A stretch of DNA of 64,000 nt from the NCBI GenBank assembly GCA_947259225.1, contig CAMYLK010000010.1:39568-103567 (forward strand). The letters are read 5' to 3'. The notes below the pieces were generated by a model. That model saw only the letters and a list, made by a program, of their open reading frames with translations. It was not told the origin of the DNA and did not search any database. The translations under genes were made by a program, and so were the position numbers. Source of the stretch: an uncultured Desulfobulbaceae bacterium (GTDB lineage: Bacteria; Desulfobacterota; Desulfobulbia; Desulfobulbales; Desulfobulbaceae). Position 1 is the first letter of the stretch; each line of letters begins with the position of its first letter. Below, piece after piece: positions 11,354-23,724 of this stretch.

Positions 11354-13063
11354 ATGAACGAAACGTTTGACATCTGGAGTCTCTTGGCAGGTCTTGGCAT
11401 GTTTCTTTTCGGGATGTTTATTCTGGAAGAATCCATCAAGGCCCTGTCGGGCAAGGCATTCAAAAAATTGATCCGTCAGTATACAGATGGACGCCTGAGA
11501 GCAATCAGAAGTGGGGCCCTGGTTACGGCCATACTACAAAGCAGTTCCGCAGTTTCCCTCATGGTTCTCGCTTTTGTCGGGGCTGGTGTAATGAGCATGG
11601 AAAATGCCATTGCGGTGATGATGGGCTCCAACATCGGAACAACTTTTACCGCCTGGATAGTCGCTACGCTAGGTTTCAAGGTAAAAATCGACACCTTTGC
11701 CCTGCCTTTTATCGGCCTGGGGGGCATGGGAATGATTTTTTTCTCATCCACTCCCAAACTGATGCAGGCGGGTAGGCTGCTAATCGGATTCGGGCTGCTT
11801 TTTCTGGGGCTCGACTACATGAAAGACAGTGTGGATAATCTGGCAGCAAGCGTAGATCTCAGCCATATTCCTGATTACGGGCTTTGGCTCTACCTGGTGG
11901 TCGGGGCTCTTCTTACAGCGCTTATGCAGTCCAGCTCGGCAAGCATAGCCATTGTCCTGACCGCCCTGAACAGCGGATTGATAACCTTTAACATGGGAGT
12001 CGCACTGGTTATAGGAGCAAATATCGGTACGACCATTACCGTCCTTCTCGGTTCAATAGGTGGTGTCCAGTCCAAAAAAAGAGTAGCGGTCAGCCATCTG
12101 GTTTTCAATGTTGGGGCTGGCCTTATTGCATACTTCACGATCCCTGTTTTTGTATGGTTTATAAAAATATTTATCGAGGTCGGGAGTAACAGTGTAATAG
12201 CGCTGGCCCTTTACCATACGCTGTTCAACATTACAGGGGTCTTGATTTTCTTTCCATTTATCAGCCTGTTGGCACGGACACTCGTCAGGCTGTATCCTGA
12301 CCGGAGAACGGTCGTGACCGTGTATATTGATAAGACTCCAATGGAAGTAACAGACGCGGCAACGGATGCATTGCAGGAAGAAGTAAAGCATATGCTCGAG
12401 GAATGCCAGCTATATAACCTCCGGCTGCTCAACATCGATGAAAAACTTGTGTTTGACCACGATACTCCTTTCCAGAAAAACGCTCAGATGAGATTGACCA
12501 ACGAAAGGCTTTATGACCAGATCAAACTCCTGCATTCGGACATATTTGCTTTTTACTCCAAAATCCATACCCAGGAAATGGAAGAAAGTGATGTCAAGAG
12601 ATCTGAACGGATAATATATGCATCAAGAAATATCATGAATTCCATAAAAAACTTCAAAGACATCAAACATAATCTGGACGAGTTTGATGCCTCTGAAAAT
12701 ATTTACCTCAACACCCAGTACAAACTCTTTAGAAGGCGGCTGGTGGATGTGTATCATGAAATGAACAAGATCCTGGAAATGAAAAATCAGGAAGAACAGT
12801 ATCGAAAACTTCTCTCCACCTTTGTTCATGTTGAAGAGGATGACAAAAGACTCATTACAGAAACGATGCAGGCGGTTTCAGATAAAAAAATACATGAACT
12901 TGAAATCGCTTCCATCCTGCTGGTGAACAGGTTGTTCACGATGTCCTGCCGGCTTCAGATTTTCAGCCTGAAGGACCTGCTGCTGACCCCTGAACAGGTA
13001 AATGACTTTGACCGGGCCCTTGACATGAAGGACATCATTGAGGAGGAGCACGCGAAGTCGTAG
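11354..13063 (+). CDS. Na/Pi cotransporter family protein with PhoU-like C-terminus
   Basis: Duplicated QSSSA motifs (LQSSSAVSLMVLAFVGAG, MQSSSASIAIVLTA), GANIGTT x2. Confidence 0.9.
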   Translation: MNETFDIWSLLAGLGMFLFGMFILEESIKALSGKAFKKLIRQYTDGRLRAIRSGALVTAILQSSSAVSLMVLAFVGAGVMSMENAIAVMMGSNIGTTFTAWIVATLGFKVKIDTFALPFIGLGGMGMIFFSSTPKLMQAGRLLIGFGLLFLGLDYMKDSVDNLAASVDLSHIPDYGLWLYLVVGALLTALMQSSSASIAIVLTALNSGLITFNMGVALVIGANIGTTITVLLGSIGGVQSKKRVAVSHLVFNVGAGLIAYFTIPVFVWFIKIFIEVGSNSVIALALYHTLFNITGVLIFFPFISLLARTLVRLYPDRRTVVTVYIDKTPMEVTDAATDALQEEVKHMLEECQLYNLRLLNIDEKLVFDHDTPFQKNAQMRLTNERLYDQIKLLHSDIFAFYSKIHTQEMEESDVKRSERIIYASRNIMNSIKNFKDIKHNLDEFDASENIYLNTQYKLFRRRLVDVYHEMNKILEMKNQEEQYRKLLSTFVHVEEDDKRLITETMQAVSDKKIHELEIASILLVNRLFTMSCRLQIFSLKDLLLTPEQVNDFDRALDMKDIIEEEHAKS

Positions 13064-13524: not shown

Positions 13525-14901
13525 ATGAGGTTTTGCATGAGTGACTTAACTTCTCCCCAGGAAATATTACGTGAGCTTATCGCTACAGATAACAGCGTTG
13601 AGTTGACAAAGTTCATTGATACTCTCAGTCCGTCCGAGACAGCGAGAGCTATCTCCAGACTGACTGAAAAAGAAAGGCTTCACCTCCTTAACCTACTTAG
13701 TCCTGAGGATGCTGCGGATGTTATCGAGGATATCCCGGATGTTCAGGCTGCAGATATGGTAGAGGATCTGTCATCGGAACAAGCTGCGGCTATTATGGAG
13801 GAGTTGTCCAGCGACCATCTTGTTGACGTACTCGGCGAAATGAATGAAGACGCAAGTCAAGCCATTCTGGAAAAAATGGATAAAGAGGATGCTGAAGAAG
13901 CAAGAAGATTTCTGGATTACCCACCGGACTGTTCCGGTGGAATTATGATATCCGAGTTCCTCGCTTATAAAACCAACGATACTATCCAGGATGTACTCGA
14001 TGACCTTCAGGCCAATCGGAAAGAATACTTAGATTACCATGTACAATATTTTTATGTGATTGAGCGAGAAAATAAATTGGCCGGTGTGCTGCGGATTCAC
14101 GATATACTTTTTCCTGACCGGGGAACTCGTCTATCACAGGTTATGATTTCCCCTCCTTTTAGTGTTTCAGACAAGGCTTCGCTCGCCGAACTCCAAGACT
14201 TTTTCGAAAAACATCATCTTTTTGGCGTTCCAGTTGTGAACGATGAACAGCAGTTGCTTGGTGTGGTGCTACCTGAAGCTGTTGAGGAGGCAATCAACAA
14301 GCGAAAAACCAAAAACTTTCTTAGCTTGAGCGGTATTATAGGTGGTGAGGAGTTCCGAACTATGCCGCTGCTTTCTCGGTCCGGACGCCGTCTTTCCTGG
14401 TTGAGCATGAACATTGTACTTAATATTATCGCCGCAAGTGTCATTGCCTTGTACCAAGACACCCTCGCCGCAGTTATTACCCTGGCAGTTTTTCTACCCA
14501 TGGTCAGCGATATGAGCGGGTGTTCAGGCAACCAGGCCGTAGCAGTTTCCATGCGTGAACTCTCCCTTGGCCTGGTTCGACCAGCCGAACTACTCTGGGT
14601 GCTGGCAAAAGAAGCCAAAGTTGGCATCATCAATGGCTTGGTGCTTGGTTTGTTGCTCGGCGGTGTAGCTTATTTTTGGAAGGGAAACATTTGGCTGGGA
14701 GTTGTTGTCGGTGGTGCCTTGGCCGCTAACACCCTGGTTTCCGTCACTCTCGGCGGAATGTTGCCCCTTGTGCTAAAAAGGCTGAAGTTTGATCCGGCTC
14801 TGGTTTCCAGCCCCTTATTGACAACAGTCACCGATATGTGTGGTTTCTTTTTCGTTTTGAGTTTTGCGGCGGCTGTATTGCCCAAACTCGGAGGTATATA
14901 A
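13525..14901 (+). CDS. mgtE: Magnesium transporter MgtE
   Basis: MgtE_N repeats (LSPEDAADVIEDI), CBS domains, C-terminal TM region with VFLPMVSDMSGCSGNQAV. Confidence 0.94.
   Translation: MRFCMSDLTSPQEILRELIATDNSVELTKFIDTLSPSETARAISRLTEKERLHLLNLLSPEDAADVIEDIPDVQAADMVEDLSSEQAAAIMEELSSDHLVDVLGEMNEDASQAILEKMDKEDAEEARRFLDYPPDCSGGIMISEFLAYKTNDTIQDVLDDLQANRKEYLDYHVQYFYVIERENKLAGVLRIHDILFPDRGTRLSQVMISPPFSVSDKASLAELQDFFEKHHLFGVPVVNDEQQLLGVVLPEAVEEAINKRKTKNFLSLSGIIGGEEFRTMPLLSRSGRRLSWLSMNIVLNIIAASVIALYQDTLAAVITLAVFLPMVSDMSGCSGNQAVAVSMRELSLGLVRPAELLWVLAKEAKVGIINGLVLGLLLGGVAYFWKGNIWLGVVVGGALAANTLVSVTLGGMLPLVLKRLKFDPALVSSPLLTTVTDMCGFFFVLSFAAAVLPKLGGI
14826..14901 (+). repeat. Copy 1 of 76-bp direct repeat (3' end of mgtE)
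   Basis: agtcaccgatatgtgtggtttctttttcgttttgagttttgcggcggctgtattgcccaaactcggaggtatataa; 73/76 identical to 19618-19693. Confidence 0.95.
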
Positions 14902-15032
14902 TATCAAGTATTGTTTGGCAGGGATGGCATTTTGTTCCCAGGTGACGTTGTAATGCCAATGAATATTTTCCTGATCAGGCTTTTGACAAAGGTATCGTGC
15001 CCATATGCCAATAATTATTTTGATCTGGTATT

Positions 15033-16631
15033 TTACTTCATTTTCAAAACATGTTCAGTAAAGTTATTGGCATGGTCACTTATTCTACCTAAATCTTTTA
15101 GTACATATGGATAAAATGCATCAATGGCAGGTTTTAATTGCTCCTCTTCCAATTTGCGCAGGTACTTGTTTTTGTATTCTGCTTTTAACTCCTTCAACTG
15201 ATGTTCCATTTTGTGAATATCAATATCCAGGGCTTTTTGTTTCGACTTAAATGAGTTGGCTGCTGCTGTATAAACTTGGATGGCATTGTCAAAAAAAACA
15301 GACAGGTCCTTTTTTGCTGCATCTGAAAAAACAACTTCTTCCTGGTTGGTATATCCTACAATATTTTCTGCCAGGTCAGCGATCCGTTCTAAGTCGGTTA
15401 CTGCATGGACCAGAGCTCTTTTTTTTGTCCTGTCCCCATCATTAAGTGTAATTGTACTTATTTTATTTAAGTAGCTTCCAACTTTTTCATGCATGCCGTC
15501 TACAATTTTCTCGTTTTCACTGAGCAGCTTGACAGCATCTTTGTCATCCTCAAAAAAGGCTTTTTGTGCCTGTTTCAGTAATTCTGCAACAATGGAAGCC
15601 ATCCTGTTAACCTCTTGTTCTGCCTCGTACAGTGCAAGGGCAGGAACGTTGAGGAATTTGTTTTCAAGGAGGCCGTATGCAGATTCTGGAGGTTCTGCTT
15701 TTCCAGGAATTATTTTGGTCAGAACAAAAACCAGTATACCAACAAAAGGCATAAGGATAAGGCTGACTGTAACATTGAATACCGTGTGAGCATTGGCGAT
15801 AAGACGTGGTGTGTCGGATGCGGTCAGAGAAATCACTGCGGCAAACTGTTCCAGAAATGGATAAAAAATCAAAGCACCAAAACAATTTATGAGGAACTGG
15901 GCCATACCTGTTCGCCGAGCAGCTGTATTCGTGCCTATGGTTGCAACCAGTTCCAGCACACAGGTCCCTATATTTGCTCCTATGATAAGAGCTATGCCGG
16001 AATTGAGAGGTATTATACCCTCCATGCTCATTGCAATAACCAAGCTTGTTGTTGCCGAACTGCTGCTGGTAATGGCGGTTAGTAATGCACCAATCAAAAT
16101 ACCTATCAAAGGGTAAACACCAAAATCTCCTAGGATTTTGTGAACAACAGGATACTCTCCTAATGGTGCGGAGCCGTCGGACATGATTTTCATTGAGAGA
16201 AAGATCATTCCTACGTACAGGAGTATATCTCCAGTGTTTTTGATGTTCTCTTTTGAGCTAAGAGCGCTCATGGCAAAACCTGCTATCATGAACGGGTAAA
16301 AAATCATTTTTAATTTAAAGGCAACTATTTGTGCAGTAATGGTTGTCCCTATTCCAGAACCCAGAACAACATATATTGCCTGTCGCAAATTCATGATTCC
16401 AGCATTTACCAGGCCGAGGAGCAATAGAATAGTTACGCTTGAACTCTGAACCATAAAGGTTACAAAAGTGCCAGTGAAAGCTCCTTTCACAGGGTTTCCG
16501 GTTGCTTTCCGAAGGATAGATTTGAGGCGGACACTGGCGACTTTCTTTAAGGTGTTGCTCAGCATGCCTATGCTGAACAGAAACAGTGCCAATCCGCCGC
16601 CTAATTGGAATATTATAAAAAGAATATCCAT
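15033..16631 (-). CDS. Na/Pi cotransporter family protein (second, divergent paralog) with PhoU-like C-terminus
   Basis: VQSSSVTILLLLGLVNAG, TSSSSATTSLVIAM, GANIGTC; C-terminal PhoU-like helices. Confidence 0.9.
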   Translation of the reverse strand: MDILFIIFQLGGGLALFLFSIGMLSNTLKKVASVRLKSILRKATGNPVKGAFTGTFVTFMVQSSSVTILLLLGLVNAGIMNLRQAIYVVLGSGIGTTITAQIVAFKLKMIFYPFMIAGFAMSALSSKENIKNTGDILLYVGMIFLSMKIMSDGSAPLGEYPVVHKILGDFGVYPLIGILIGALLTAITSSSSATTSLVIAMSMEGIIPLNSGIALIIGANIGTCVLELVATIGTNTAARRTGMAQFLINCFGALIFYPFLEQFAAVISLTASDTPRLIANAHTVFNVTVSLILMPFVGILVFVLTKIIPGKAEPPESAYGLLENKFLNVPALALYEAEQEVNRMASIVAELLKQAQKAFFEDDKDAVKLLSENEKIVDGMHEKVGSYLNKISTITLNDGDRTKKRALVHAVTDLERIADLAENIVGYTNQEEVVFSDAAKKDLSVFFDNAIQVYTAAANSFKSKQKALDIDIHKMEHQLKELKAEYKNKYLRKLEEEQLKPAIDAFYPYVLKDLGRISDHANNFTEHVLKMK

Positions 16632-16701
16632 AGAGGTGTCGACATATTGATGACTTGTTAAAATATCCGTCTAATATTATCCACGATAAATACGTGATTA
16701 T

Positions 16702-17556
16702 CTATTTGACGGTGGAGTTTTTTCTTAGATACACAAACCAGTATACCGCCCCGACAAGGAGCGCTCCACCGATGATGTTTCCAATGGTAACTGGAAGAAG
16801 ATTGCTTGCCAGAAAATTACTGACAGTCAGATTCATAAATTGATCAGGCTGGGAGCCGGTAGCCTGCCAGAAAGCAGGTGGGGCCCCAGAGCGGATGAAA
16901 AGGCCAATAGGAATGAAATACATGTTGGCGACACAGTGTTCAAAACCCGCCGCCACAAAGGCGGTGATAGGAAAAATGATCGAGAGTATTTTGTCGGTTG
17001 AGGTCCTTGCACTGAAACAAAGCCAGACTGCCAGGCAGACCAGCACGTTGCACATTATGCCAAGAGATATTGCCTGAATAAACGTAAGACTGCATTTTGC
17101 TTGTGCTATTGATAAGGCGGTTATCCCAACCTGGCCATTAGCGAAAGTGTACTGGCCTGTAAAGAACATGAGGACTGCTGTAGCAAGGGAGCCGAAGAGA
17201 TTGCCCGTATACACAATCACCCAATTTCGGAATATCTGAAAAGCGGAAATTCGTCCACTTGCCCAAGCCATAACGATAAGATTGTTGCCTGTGAATAGTT
17301 CAGCTCCTCCAATGATGACCAGGATCAGGCCCAGTGAAAAAACAATGCCGCCAAGCAGTTTTTTGACCCCGAAGGCTATATCTCCCGTTACAGTGACCGT
17401 GCAAAATATGGCTCCTATGGCAATGAATGCCCCTGCCAGGACAGCCAGGACAAACATCGTCAGAGTATTCATATTTGCCTTTTTAACTCCTGTCTCTTCT
17501 GCCTTGCTGGCCATTTCAGCCGGGAGCAGTGCATCAATTACGTGAGAAGTTTCCAT
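16702..17556 (-). CDS. Formate/nitrite transporter (FocA/FNT family)
   Basis: FNT signature region AELFTGNNLI, GIMCNVLVCLAVW, FEHCVANMYFIPIGL. Confidence 0.92.
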   Translation of the reverse strand: METSHVIDALLPAEMASKAEETGVKKANMNTLTMFVLAVLAGAFIAIGAIFCTVTVTGDIAFGVKKLLGGIVFSLGLILVIIGGAELFTGNNLIVMAWASGRISAFQIFRNWVIVYTGNLFGSLATAVLMFFTGQYTFANGQVGITALSIAQAKCSLTFIQAISLGIMCNVLVCLAVWLCFSARTSTDKILSIIFPITAFVAAGFEHCVANMYFIPIGLFIRSGAPPAFWQATGSQPDQFMNLTVSNFLASNLLPVTIGNIIGGALLVGAVYWFVYLRKNSTVK

Positions 17557-17854
17557 GAGACCTTCCTTGCTTATATGTATGGTGATAGATCAAAGGTTCA
17601 GAGCTGTTGGAAAGACGGACAAAAAGAAGAGTAGAAAATACAAGATCAGCTGTGCGGGAGTAGTTTTATTCTGCATGGATTACTCCATCTGTATTATTTG
17701 CACTGGTTCGCTTGGTTTGCTTTTATTCTATTATATTCTGCCCAACAAAACGAAACACTTTTTTTCAGTTTCCTTAGTACAGCAAGGTACCGATTAAAGT
17801 ATATTTATCGCAGTATTTAGGAACCTTTCATTTCCTCATTCATAATCCTGCACT

Positions 17855-18354
17855 TTAAATTTGCTTTCCTTCGCCCTTTTGCCTCGCACATTTATCAATT
17901 TCAACGGCAATGATTATTGTTGAAGCCACTAAGCTTATCTTTACCCATTCAATGACGGTAATGGCTCGGTTTTGAAAATCCACTGAAAGGCCGCACAACC
18001 TGGGTTTGGGCACCACCATTTTTTTTGGCGCCCTGACGCTTTCTTCCGCTTTATGCTCCTGGACAAAACCGATTATCGCATTAATAACGACTACCGAGAA
18101 AATGACCCCAGAATCGATATATTCTTTGAGGAGGATTGTTACGATACCTGCAATGAGCAGGATATGGATGAGCAGGCTGGTAAACTGATGGAGGAGTATA
18201 TGGAGTTTACTTATTTTTCTTCTTCGGCAAGCGTGTTGGGACCATATTGTTTTAGCCGTTTTTCAACCTCTTCCCCACTTAGTCTATGCTCAGAAGTCTG
18301 GAGCTCTTCAAACGCCTCTTTGGCACCAAGTTGATACCAGTTCAACTTTCCCAT
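17855..18354 (-). pseudogene. Remnant of cation-transporting P-type ATPase (N-terminal and C-terminal ends only, frameshifted)
   Basis: Reverse-strand MGKLNWYQLGAKEAFEELQTSEHRLSGEEVEKRLKQYGPNTLAEEEK* then, after restoring one base in an A-run, ISKLHILLHQFTSLLIHILLIAGIVTILLKEYIDSGVIFSVVVINAIIGFVQEHKAEESVRAPKKMVVPK, fused to a C-terminal-like AITVIEWVKISLVASTIIIAVEIDKCARQK; the D-K-T-G phosphorylation and nucleotide-binding regions are absent. Confidence 0.8.
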
Positions 18355-18533
18355 ACGTGCGCTTCCTATGATTTTCTATGTGCAAGAAAAAAGTGTTCGA
18401 AATTGTCACGTACTACCCACCATGCCCTGTATCATTTCAGACGATTGTGAAAAATCTCTGTCTTCTCCAATTATTGAAAAATTACATGACAATTCTTATT
18501 TGCTTTGGCAATCTCAATCTGGACCTATTTTTT

Positions 18534-19557
18534 TCATTGCCTGGGCAAAATGACGCTAAAAATGGTTCCATGAGGAGAGTTATCTGAAATTTCCAATGAT
18601 CTTTCATGTGCTTCCACAAGCTTTTTAACAATGGCAAGGCCCAGTCCAGTACCCTCCTTTTTGCTGGTAAAAAATGGATCAAAAACTTTCGCTCTATGGT
18701 CATGCGAGATGCCACTACCATAATCGGCGACATCAATGACAATATTTTTCTTTGCCATGGAAGTTCGTATTGTTACTTTTTCCCCTTCCGAGGATGCCTG
18801 AACGGCATTCAGCGCAAAATTGATAATCATCTGTTCCATACGGATGGCATCGAATGTAACAGTTGGGAGGTCAGGGGAAAGCAAGATTTCAACTGTAACC
18901 CCCCTCTTTTGTACCGTCTCTGTCAATATATCCATACTCCTTTGAACTATTTCATTCAGTGTCCACGGGACAGTTGCAGCGTCAGTGGACTTGTAAAAAC
19001 GAGCATATATTCATCATTTTTTTTAGACGCTCCGTTTCACGTATGACGATGTCTAATTTTTCACGATACGGGTCACCCTGTTTAAATTTCTTTTGTAGTC
19101 GCTCAGCAAAACCGCTAATGGCAAAAAGCGGTGTTTTCATGTCATGGGCAACAGCGGCAAGTGACCTGCCCATTGTCGATAGGCTTTTGGCCTTCAATAG
19201 CTATTCATTGGTGACAGTCTCGCGGTCTTTCAGGACACCAATAAAGGCTGCAATAAAAATGTACAGTACCATCGACAGCATCCTGTCAAAATCAACTGGG
19301 GAAAAGCCCTGCCAGTGCAAATAAACAAATGGAATGCGGCAAATCGTAACCCCAATAGAAACTACCAGGGCACCACGCAGACCTAACCAAAAGCCCGCCA
19401 GGACAATTGGCAGGAAATAGAGGCCTACGATAAAAACATGGTAGTGGTGCTGGGTCTGATCGGTAAGGTAATGTAAGAGGCTGATACCTGACACCAGGAT
19501 TACAATGAGTAGAATTTTTGTTTTTCGGGACATATCTGTTTTGAATTCTCTCTTCAT
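18534..19557 (-). pseudogene. Disrupted sensor histidine kinase (in-frame amber stop plus frameshift)
   Basis: Three ORFs in series: TM sensor part (19201..19557), H-box part LAAVAHDMKTPLFAISGFAERLQ (18982..19197, same frame after TAG), HATPase part NFALNAVQAS...GSGISHDHRAKVFDPFFTSKKEGTGLGLAIVKKLVE (18534..18935, shifted frame). Confidence 0.82.
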
Positions 19558-19617
19558 TAAGTGTCAGGAGAACAACTCCACCTACCTGTCACAGATTAAG
19601 CTAAGGCCTTAAAATAA

Positions 19618-19693
19618 AGTCACCGATATGTGTGGTTTCTTTTTTGTTTTGAGTTTTGCGGCGGCTGTATTGCCCAAACTCGGAGGTATGTAG
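19618..19693 (+). repeat. Copy 2 of 76-bp direct repeat: orphan mgtE 3' end (VTDMCGFFFVLSFAAAVLPKLGGM*)
   Basis: agtcaccgatatgtgtggtttcttttttgttttgagttttgcggcggctgtattgcccaaactcggaggtatgtag; 73/76 identical to 14826-14901, no mgtE body upstream. Confidence 0.95.
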
Positions 19694-19701
19694 AAATATT
19701 C

Positions 19702-20862
19702 TTACGAAGTTCGGTATAACCAGTTACGAAGTAATATCGGAACGATGAGAGTTGTAATCAAGCTCATCAGTACCAAGGCTACGTAGGCTGGCTGTTCAAT
19801 TACACCACGATCAAGAGCTAGTAATGCAATTACCATGGCGACCTCACCACGAGGCGCCATCCCGACTCCGATAATCATGCTTTCTCTAATCGAAATACCT
19901 GTTACTCGTGCACTTACCCCACAGCCGAGAAATTTGGAGAAGAAAGCGACAAGTGTCAACACCCCTGCAAAAATTATAGTATCTGTATCTAAAGTGCGCA
20001 TGTCTGCAAGCACACCGAGTGAAACAAAAAAGACTGCTCCAAACGAAGCCCGTACGTATTCTGCGCCTATATGTATTGACCGACTCTTATTAACATGAAT
20101 ACCCTCGAAGACTACACCAGCAACAAAAGCACCTACGATTGCCGATAAACCAAGGTGCTCTGCAACCAGTGCATATACAAATGCCATTAGCAAGCCAAGG
20201 ACAAAGATGAACTCCGGAGATCGCTCAGCTAATGCTGAACTATCGACTTTGGTAATCAAACGGGAGAATATTTTTTGACCAAGCACTGCCCCAGCACTTA
20301 TAAACAGCACGGCTTTTACTGCCGTTAAAGCAATTGTAAACGGCACAATGATTCCTGTGCTGAGTTGATCTGTAAGGGATAAAATAAGTAAAGCCAGAAC
20401 ATCATCAATGACTGCTGCGCCAATAATAAGCTTGGCTTCTGGCGACTGAAGTCTACCCAGCTCGCGTAATGTATCGGCGGTTATAGCTATACTGGTAGCA
20501 CTCAAAACAACCCCAATCAACAATGCTCGGTTCGTTTCAAAGCCGAAACCACGTGCTGCCAGATATCCAGCAATCCAAGGTAATATTATACCGGCTAGTG
20601 CAATTATAAATGGGCGTACGCTTGCCAGATCTCGAATGCGAAACTCCAAGCCTACAACGAACAGAAGTATTATGGCACCTAAATGAGCTATATTAGAAAC
20701 AAATGTTGTGTAGGTAATCCAGCCAAGGAGACTAGGGCCGACAAGTAAGCCAATTATTATTTGTCCAACGACTGCGGGCTGACGCACAAGTCCGGACAAT
20801 AAATGACCGGCAAGGCCGACAGCCAACAGTAGGCTCATCTGAAATTCTATTGATTCGCTCAT
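19702..20862 (-). CDS. Cation:proton antiporter (CPA2/Kef-type)
   Basis: ~12 TM segments; GLVRQPAVVGQIIIGLLVGPSLLG, ATSIAITADTL, AAVIDDVLALLILS. Confidence 0.9.
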   Translation of the reverse strand: MSESIEFQMSLLLAVGLAGHLLSGLVRQPAVVGQIIIGLLVGPSLLGWITYTTFVSNIAHLGAIILLFVVGLEFRIRDLASVRPFIIALAGIILPWIAGYLAARGFGFETNRALLIGVVLSATSIAITADTLRELGRLQSPEAKLIIGAAVIDDVLALLILSLTDQLSTGIIVPFTIALTAVKAVLFISAGAVLGQKIFSRLITKVDSSALAERSPEFIFVLGLLMAFVYALVAEHLGLSAIVGAFVAGVVFEGIHVNKSRSIHIGAEYVRASFGAVFFVSLGVLADMRTLDTDTIIFAGVLTLVAFFSKFLGCGVSARVTGISIRESMIIGVGMAPRGEVAMVIALLALDRGVIEQPAYVALVLMSLITTLIVPILLRNWLYRTS

Positions 20863-20915: not shown

Positions 20916-21209
20916 TCAGAAGTTTTCTGATTTATAAACATCAAAAATAGTTTTTTCTCCTATGATGGTGTCAATTCTTCCCTGAAGCTTTTTCACCTCT
21001 TTTCTTTCCATCCATTTTTTCCAATGATTTTCCGTTTTCCATTCACTGATGACAATATTATCGACGGAATCATTAATGTTAGTGAAGGTAGCTCTTGATA
21101 TAAAACCTTTCTGCTTTTTTGCGTGTTTGCGAAGTTTTCCCAGAAGATCAATGAGTTTATCATTATTTTGAATATTAAAAACCCGTTTGCTGATTACTGT
21201 GACTGACAT
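20916..21209 (-). CDS. Antibiotic biosynthesis monooxygenase (ABM) domain protein
   Basis: Dimeric alpha-beta barrel pattern: KQKGFISRATFTNINDSVDNIVISEWKTENHWKKWM. Confidence 0.8.
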   Translation of the reverse strand: MSVTVISKRVFNIQNNDKLIDLLGKLRKHAKKQKGFISRATFTNINDSVDNIVISEWKTENHWKKWMERKEVKKLQGRIDTIIGEKTIFDVYKSENF

Positions 21210-21257: not shown

Positions 21258-22304
21258 TTATGTAACCGGTGGTTCATTTTTGAGTTCAGAGACATTACCT
21301 TCGATATGTTTCTCCTGAAATCCTTCTACCTGCTGATGGGCTTCAACGAGATCCTCGAACCGGGCAAGATGAAAAATTGCTTCACCTTCGTGGATCAAGG
21401 GTGTTTCTGTTCTACCGATAATAATACCGCTAAATGGTGCTTCAACTCGAGTCACTTCTTCTCCATATAGGTCATCAACCAGGGCCAGCAGGTCTCCCTT
21501 TCGCATTTTATTTCCCAATGGCTTTAATATTCGAAGCATACCACTTGCAGGTGCTCTGACCCATGAACTGGAACGTGCCTCTACAGGCTCTGTAGTAGAA
21601 CGTTTCTTTCTGGTTTTTGGGAGCATACCTAAAAACCGTAAAACATTGACCACACCTTTAACTCCAGCCCTGATACTCATCTCATCAAATCTTAATGCTT
21701 CACCGGCTTCATAAAGCAATACAGGCACTCCCATCTCGGAAGCAACTTCACGTAAAGAACCGTCGCGCTCAACGGAGTTCAATATAACCGGAGTACCGAA
21801 TGCCTTTGCTAATAAACGAGTCTCATCATTTTCCAGATTAGCACGGATTTGAGGGAGATTGGAACGGTGAATTGCACCAGTATGAAGATCAATCCCGTGA
21901 GTGCATTGTGATACTATTTCATCTATAAAAAATCTTGCTATACGAGCAGCAAGAGACCCTTTTTCCGATCCTGGAAAACTTCGATTAAGATCCCTTCTGT
22001 CTGGAAGGTATCGGCTATGATGTATCAACCCATAAAGATTTACAGCTGGGACAGCTATGAGTGTACCGCGAAGTCGTGACAGGGATGGTAATTGAAGAAT
22101 ACGCCTAATTATCTCCACACCATTAAGTTCATCCCCATGGAGGGCAGCACAAATAAATAGTCTTGGCCCATCTTTTTTGCCCCGGATGATGTGAACCGGC
22201 ATACTGATTGGTGTATGGGTGTAGAGCTTGGGCAGAGGTAGTCCTATGATTCTACGAGTCCCTGGCGCAATAATTTCACCATTGATCCGCAACTCAGAAT
22301 CCAT
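21258..22304 (-). CDS. Succinylglutamate desuccinylase/aspartoacylase (AstE/AspA) family protein
   Basis: ALHGDELNGVEIIRR, DLNRSFPG, DLHTGAIHRSNLPQIRAN; start set at MDSELRING just downstream of the rimK-like stop (ORF extends to 22382). Confidence 0.85.
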   Translation of the reverse strand: MDSELRINGEIIAPGTRRIIGLPLPKLYTHTPISMPVHIIRGKKDGPRLFICAALHGDELNGVEIIRRILQLPSLSRLRGTLIAVPAVNLYGLIHHSRYLPDRRDLNRSFPGSEKGSLAARIARFFIDEIVSQCTHGIDLHTGAIHRSNLPQIRANLENDETRLLAKAFGTPVILNSVERDGSLREVASEMGVPVLLYEAGEALRFDEMSIRAGVKGVVNVLRFLGMLPKTRKKRSTTEPVEARSSSWVRAPASGMLRILKPLGNKMRKGDLLALVDDLYGEEVTRVEAPFSGIIIGRTETPLIHEGEAIFHLARFEDLVEAHQQVEGFQEKHIEGNVSELKNEPPVT

Positions 22305-22308
22305 GTAA

Positions 22309-23229
22309 TTAACCTTTACCCTTGGTACTGGTTCGGCTTTTCTTTCCTGCAGTGGCTTTGACCTGTTTTTCAGTATACTCAATTATCAATTTTGCCACGT
22401 CTTTTCCTGTTGCAGTCTCAACACCCTCTAAGCCAGGAGAAGAGTTTACCTCCATTACAAGAGGTCCATGATTTGACCTGAGGATATCTACCCCGCAAAC
22501 GTTCAAGCCCATAACTTTCGCCGCCCGTATAGCCGTTGCACGCTCCTGTGGATTTATTTTTGCGAGACTTGCCGTTCCGCCACGATGCAGGTTTGATCGA
22601 AATTCGCCCTCAGGTCCCTTCCTTTTCATTGCAGCAACTACCTTCCCATTCACAACAAAACATCTTATATCAGTGCCGGATGATTCTTTAATGTATTCCT
22701 GGACCATAATGTTAACACTCAAGCCCATAAACGCCTGTATAACACTTTCAGCTGCTTTTTTTGTTTCGGCAAGAACAACTCCGATCCCCTGTGTGCCTTC
22801 AAGAAGTTTAATAACCAGAGGTGCTCCACCAACTTCTTGAATTAGATCTTCAATGTCTCCGGGATTTCTTGCAAATCCTGTGACTGGTAACCCAATGTTT
22901 TTCCTTGCAAGCAACTGCATGGACCTGAGCTTGTCCCGCGACCGTGTAATGGCAACCGACTCATTTAGAGGGTACACCCCCATCATTTCAAACTGTCTGA
23001 GAACAGCAGTTCCATAAAAAGTTACAGATGCGCCTATTCTGGGAATAACAGCATCAAAACCTTCAAGGCTCTCTCCCTGGTACTTCATGGTAGGTTTCAA
23101 TGATGTAATATTCATGTAACATTTCAGGACATTTATGATTTTGACTTCATGTCCCCGCTCTTTGGCTGCTTCCACAATACGCCTTGTTGAATAAAGTTTA
23201 GGATTGCGGGATAAAATTGCTAATTTCAT
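22309..23229 (-). CDS. rimK: RimK-type ATP-grasp alpha-L-glutamate ligase
   Basis: [29 protein letters not shown]..., ATP-grasp [46 protein letters not shown]. Confidence 0.93.
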
Positions 23230-23253
23230 GTTTTCTCTCCTGTTGAAGCAATT

Positions 23254-23724
23254 CTATTTCTTCCTTCTATGCTCCAACTTCTTTTTTCCTAATAAGTATG
23301 ATGCCTGTGGATCAACCTGAAAACGTCCAGCCATACCGGTTCTCCCCAGCAACATCCGAAAACGCATTGTGTCCCGATTTGTCAGGGTCATCTCAACTGG
23401 AAAAATATGGAACCCCAAAGCTACATTAGTACGAATTACAAGGCGGCTTTCCTTGTGCCCCCCAGAGTCTGTTACTATACGTTCATCAATTACATCTGAT
23501 ACACATTCCACGACAGTGTCTACACGCCTTTGTCGTGGGTGTATACCAAAACGCACACGCTGAATGCCGTTTTCCTCAAAAGGCTCCAGATAAAAAGCAT
23601 GTAAAGCTGAAGACCTTGCACCCGTGTCTATTTTACATTTTATATGCTTTATGCCGAGATCCGGTAACGAAGCCCATTCTCGCCAGCCGACAAGGTTTAT
23701 ATTTTCAATATCTTTTTGCATCAC
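23254..23724 (-). CDS. Retropepsin-like 'ATP-dependent zinc protease' family protein (RimB-like)
   Basis: [33 protein letters not shown] ... [19 protein letters not shown]. Confidence 0.85.

Follow-up and report, generated by a model that had tools for sequence, protein, structure and literature searches.

A displaced mgtE 3' end in a Desulfobulbaceae genome is most likely a scar of old DNA recombination

The Mg2+ transporter gene mgtE lies in the window analyzed here, a stretch of 64,000 nucleotides from an uncultured Desulfobulbaceae bacterium, and its final 76 bp recur several kilobases downstream, beyond a set of transporter and kinase genes. How did the genome come to hold a second mgtE end without a second mgtE, and is the DNA enclosed by the two ends a mobile element? 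We compared the two copies with each other, and then with the same region in related genomes. The block is most likely an ordinary scar of old DNA recombination and not a mobile element.

The repeated mgtE end and the block that it encloses

The intact mgtE gene (13525 to 14901, plus strand) encodes a protein of 458 amino acids with the Pfam domains MgtE_N, CBS, and MgtE. Its left neighbor, also on the plus strand, is a gene for a Na/Pi cotransporter (cotransporter 1, 11354 to 13063; Pfam PF02690). The last 76 bp of mgtE, stop codon included (copy 1, 14826 to 14901), are repeated in direct orientation at 19618 to 19693 (copy 2, plus strand). An earlier, sequence-only reading had put the identity of the two copies at 73 of 76 positions, and this was borne out by direct comparison, the mismatches (copy 1/copy 2) falling at repeat positions 28 (C/T), 73 (A/G), and 76 (A/G). 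Copy 2 keeps just 25 MgtE codons, counting the stop, in an intact reading frame and with no mgtE body, and a gap of 8 bp separates it from the stop codon of a convergent gene for a CPA2-type Na+/H+ antiporter (19702 to 20862, minus strand). The size of ~4.8 kb first given for the block corresponds to the distance of 4,792 bp from the start of one copy to the start of the other; the DNA between the copies measures 4,716 bp. Given that no other direct repeat of 28 nt or longer was found anywhere in the window, and that the organism's draft genome contains just two copies of the mgtE end, both of them here (E values of 9e-34 and 2e-30), a chance origin of the repeat is excluded.

A repeat of this kind might also be produced by an assembly or binning artefact, if the mgtE contexts of two strains had been chained at their common end. 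The state of the draft (4.28 Mb in 288 contigs, ~93% complete, with an estimated contamination of 5%) would allow for this, as would the fact that the arrangement is seen in no related genome. Both copies, however, have unique flanks on either side within one 103-kb contig and differ from each other at three bases, and a typical read is longer than 76 bp. We therefore regard an artefact as very unlikely.

Four transporter and kinase genes or their remnants, all on the minus strand, account for most of the block. Domain searches agreed with the contents that had been named from the sequence: a second Na/Pi cotransporter (NaPi2, with PhoU domains, 15033 to 16631) and a formate/nitrite (FNT) channel (16702 to 17556), both intact, followed by a frame-shifted remnant of a P-type cation ATPase (~17858 to 18375) and a histidine kinase pseudogene with a DUF4118-like sensor, HisKA, and HATPase (18534 to 19557). 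In the ATPase remnant, Cation_ATPase_N and the first membrane segments match Ca-ATPases and the catalytic core is missing; the C-terminal part might be an ATPase tail that has become fused to it, a suspicion that our searches did not confirm. The kinase pseudogene carries two lesions, an in-frame stop between the sensor and HisKA and a frameshift before the ATPase domain, and its homolog in a genome of another genus (L187) is intact at 370 amino acids. No homologs of NaPi2, FNT, or the ATPase remnant were found beside the intact kinase homologs of other genera. The gene decay inside the block indicates that losses do happen at this locus. Across the block, G+C content showed no clear boundary.

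Downstream flanks and base states of the two copies

The DNA that follows copy 1 (14902 to 14957, plus strand) proved to be homologous to the 3' flank of mgtE in the closest ortholog, L037. The similarity begins 3 nt past the stop codon and runs to 14957 with one 25-nt gap, and its score was reached by none of 2,000 shuffles. It includes a 34-nt motif (14924 to 14957) with outer arms GGCAT and ATGCC, which is 26/34 identical in the L037 flank, is common to that mgtE 3' flank only, and has no other occurrence in the window. No such similarity to the L037 flank was found after copy 2, where the end of the CPA2 gene is reached within the 8 bp given above. When the flanks of the two copies were compared with each other, the local score of 16 lay within the range of shuffled sequences. 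The two flanks are thus unrelated, and the identity of the copies ends at the stop codon. Given that copy 1 is followed by a genuine mgtE flank and copy 2 by other DNA, these alignments suggest that two mgtE contexts, each with its own downstream sequence, have been joined.

The sequence-only reading had proposed a past duplication, or else an insertion through recombination at the end of mgtE, with loss of the second mgtE. Recombination is the part of that proposal that is best supported, whereas plain tandem duplication was rejected because the copies diverge at the stop codon into unrelated 3' flanks, and because the flank of copy 1 is one that it has in common with another genome's mgtE. 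A tandem duplication that later lost one of its copies would, like the present locus, leave behind an orphaned part of a second gene, but the downstream DNA that duplicated copies would be expected to share is missing here.

The three sites at which the copies differ provided a second line of evidence. Copy 2 has TTT, ATG, and TAG, which are the states of the closest ortholog (L037) and are also present in L042, L043, L045, and L048, with two of the three in L040 and L044. Copy 1, the end of the functional gene, departs from L037 at all three sites. Copy 2 therefore looks like an original mgtE end. The changes would then have fallen on the gene still in use and spared the fragment that is free of selection, whereas a drifting duplicate should show the opposite. 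We take these base states as a lean toward copy 2 as the original, bearing in mind that three sites would all agree by chance one time in eight if neutral. The conserved flank of copy 1 could also be read the other way, with copy 1 as the old locus and copy 2 as the later arrival.

Taken together with the position of the orphan, which is considered below, these results lead us to think that the repeat is probably the scar of recombination between two closely related versions of mgtE with different downstream DNA. Two homologous gene ends followed by different DNA, as expected of such a scar, are present here, and recombination between mgtE versions would account for the identity ending at the stop codon, for the flanks, for the base states, and for the place of the orphan. 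The resident locus would have consisted of mgtE, then CPA2, a gene for an ABM-domain protein (20916 to 21209, minus strand), and a cluster of AstE/AspA-like, RimK, and zinc protease genes (21258 to 23724, minus strand). The incoming or relocated DNA would have brought an mgtE 3' end and the 3' flank belonging to it, then NaPi2, FNT, the P-type ATPase, and the histidine kinase. After the join at the mgtE end, the intact gene would have acquired its present 3' end and flank from the incoming DNA, while the terminal 76 bp of the resident mgtE would have stayed behind as an orphan beside CPA2. The join might have been made through a RecA-dependent single crossover involving a circular molecule with an mgtE end, or through homologous recombination on one side and an illegitimate join on the other; a complete second mgtE might also have been present, its body being deleted later. 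The direction of the exchange, its donor, the enzyme, and the order of events are what we infer in this scheme.

Recombination events of both of the first two kinds have precedents. In Escherichia coli, a single crossover of a circularized molecule containing part of a gene end gives rise to a partial gene-end duplication, and one-sided recombination events have likewise been observed (PMC3240628). Campbell-type integration and homology-facilitated illegitimate recombination, as described there, are like the present case in leaving a partial gene-end duplication or a one-sided illegitimate junction, and in being integrase-free. They are unlike it in that the event here is old and natural, the remaining homology is just 76 bp, and no donor was found. 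The length of the repeat also counts against a scar: for homologous recombination 76 bp is little, unless the two ends at first overlapped over a greater length.

The mgtE neighborhood in related genomes

Orthologs of this mgtE, 57 to 85% identical, are scattered over Desulfobacterota, but the same-genus relatives lack it and have only distant homologs of ~24 to 29% identity or none. A relative of the gene for Na/Pi cotransporter 1 adjoins mgtE in L037 and L049. On the 3' side of mgtE, an AstE-like gene on the opposite strand is present in eight loci (L048, L055, L057, L059, L061, L069, L117, and L118), and in all of these except L059 it is backed by RimK and zinc protease genes. Because the window has kept the AstE-RimK-protease cluster at 21258 to 23724, its mgtE has been parted from its usual partner by the block, CPA2, and the ABM gene. 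The RimK of the window is of the same subtype as those of L061 and L048 (70%), which places the orphan 3' end on the side where the ancestral mgtE end would be expected, with CPA2 and ABM still intervening. One genome of the window's own genus, G002, has the AstE-RimK-zinc protease cluster and lacks mgtE.

An empty site with mgtE directly next to the CPA2 gene, which the sequence-only reading had suggested looking for in relatives, did not turn up, since close homologs of this CPA2 are lacking in the rest of the family. A search of the family at E ≤ 1e-60 returned none, so that the gene is unusable as a synteny marker and its arrival is a separate question. What we found instead was a related empty site in L061, where mgtE directly faces AstE-RimK across a gap of 3 bp, and where the CPA2 and ABM genes, which lie between copy 2 and AstE in the window, are absent. 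In no genome searched, with one genome taken per species, did this mgtE adjoin CPA2 or NaPi2-FNT, and neither the predicted donor nor the predicted resident order (mgtE followed directly by CPA2) was seen there. The missing donor and the missing pre-insertion strain are an absence of witness rather than a contradiction. It had also been considered that all relatives might have the same arrangement, which would have argued against a particular event at this locus; in fact, a second mgtE end was present in none of the 23 other genomes that have this mgtE. Within about 10 kb of the ortholog loci, the search for further mgtE ends gave a single match, 17 bp long and inverted, in L078.

In two genomes of a single genus, the interval between mgtE and AstE contains repeat-protein genes (L117) and a Fic-like gene (L118), as named by eye from the translations. 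Given these different contents, the mgtE-AstE interval tolerates insertions.

Such free variation of the interval among relatives would also suit a local duplication, in which template switching during break repair placed a 76-bp copy of the mgtE end at the junction between the kinase pseudogene and CPA2, and in which the rest of the block was never mobile. A single small event would suffice, and the flank of copy 1 does look native. This explanation, however, needs a coincidence for the copied piece to end at the stop codon, to keep the orientation of mgtE, and to lie on the AstE-RimK side, and it requires the functional gene to have acquired all three base differences and the free copy none. 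We consider it unlikely that the repeat arose in this way.

Block genes and the case for a mobile element

Insertions at gene 3' ends are well known at tRNA genes, icd, and similar sites, where they have been made by islands, prophages, and PICIs. The block shares with gene-3'-end islands an intact target gene, a cargo, and a directly repeated, displaced 3' fragment that is identical up to the end of the gene, which is the textbook anatomy of gene-end insertion, and at the sites where the copies differ the distal one agrees with the closest ortholog. A degenerate integrative element would explain these features as a tyrosine-integrase island in the mgtE 3' end, in which attP restored the end of the gene, the integrase was later lost, and the displaced original mgtE end forms the far border of the island.

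Several results speak against such an element. The assignable ORFs of the block, namely, NaPi2, FNT, the ATPase remnant, and the kinase remnant, include no integrase, recombinase, or other mobility gene, in keeping with the earlier statement that no integrase or transposase lay inside, and these four make up most of the block. No inverted-repeat (att-like) core was found in the 76 bp. Recurrent use of the site, as expected of gene-3'-end islands, was not seen either in the 23 related genomes or among plasmids, phages, and viral contigs, where no carriers of the mgtE end were found, and a search of the literature gave nothing relevant on the insertion of islands at mgtE. Moreover, the DNA after copy 1 is not element specific but the normal chromosomal 3' flank that mgtE has in another genome. 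We conclude that a degenerate integrative element is unlikely. The more specific claim that the mgtE 3' end serves as the attachment site of an undescribed, now degenerate, integrase-dependent or trans-mobilized Desulfobulbales element that moves ion and phosphate transporters is, in our view, highly improbable.

Short gene-end repeats are readily mistaken for the borders of mobile elements. Here, what the flanks and base states suggest is recombination, homologous or one-sided, between two versions of one gene that had different neighborhoods, an ordinary route of transporter-gene reshuffling, and the locus is a neat worked example of ordinary genome dynamics that raises no new question.

The cargo itself further argues against an integrative element, as it comes from the gene pool of the genus, unlike that of gene-3'-end islands. 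Within the genus, NaPi2 is 76% identical over its N-terminal half in G002 and 68% identical in G006. In both genomes it lies behind a gene for a protein of 118 to 122 amino acids, and in G004 it is decayed at that place. A decayed FNT gene is located between the small-protein gene and NaPi2 in G002. With FNT thus found beside NaPi2, the two are a native pair of the genus, unlike typical mobile-element cargo. In the window's own genome, the gene for the 118-amino-acid protein is on another contig, without NaPi2. The FNT-NaPi2 pair seems to have been lost repeatedly in the genus; a decayed FNT and a decayed NaPi2 were located at L155 1394-1663 and L195 723-1053 in the same-genus genomes G002 and G004.
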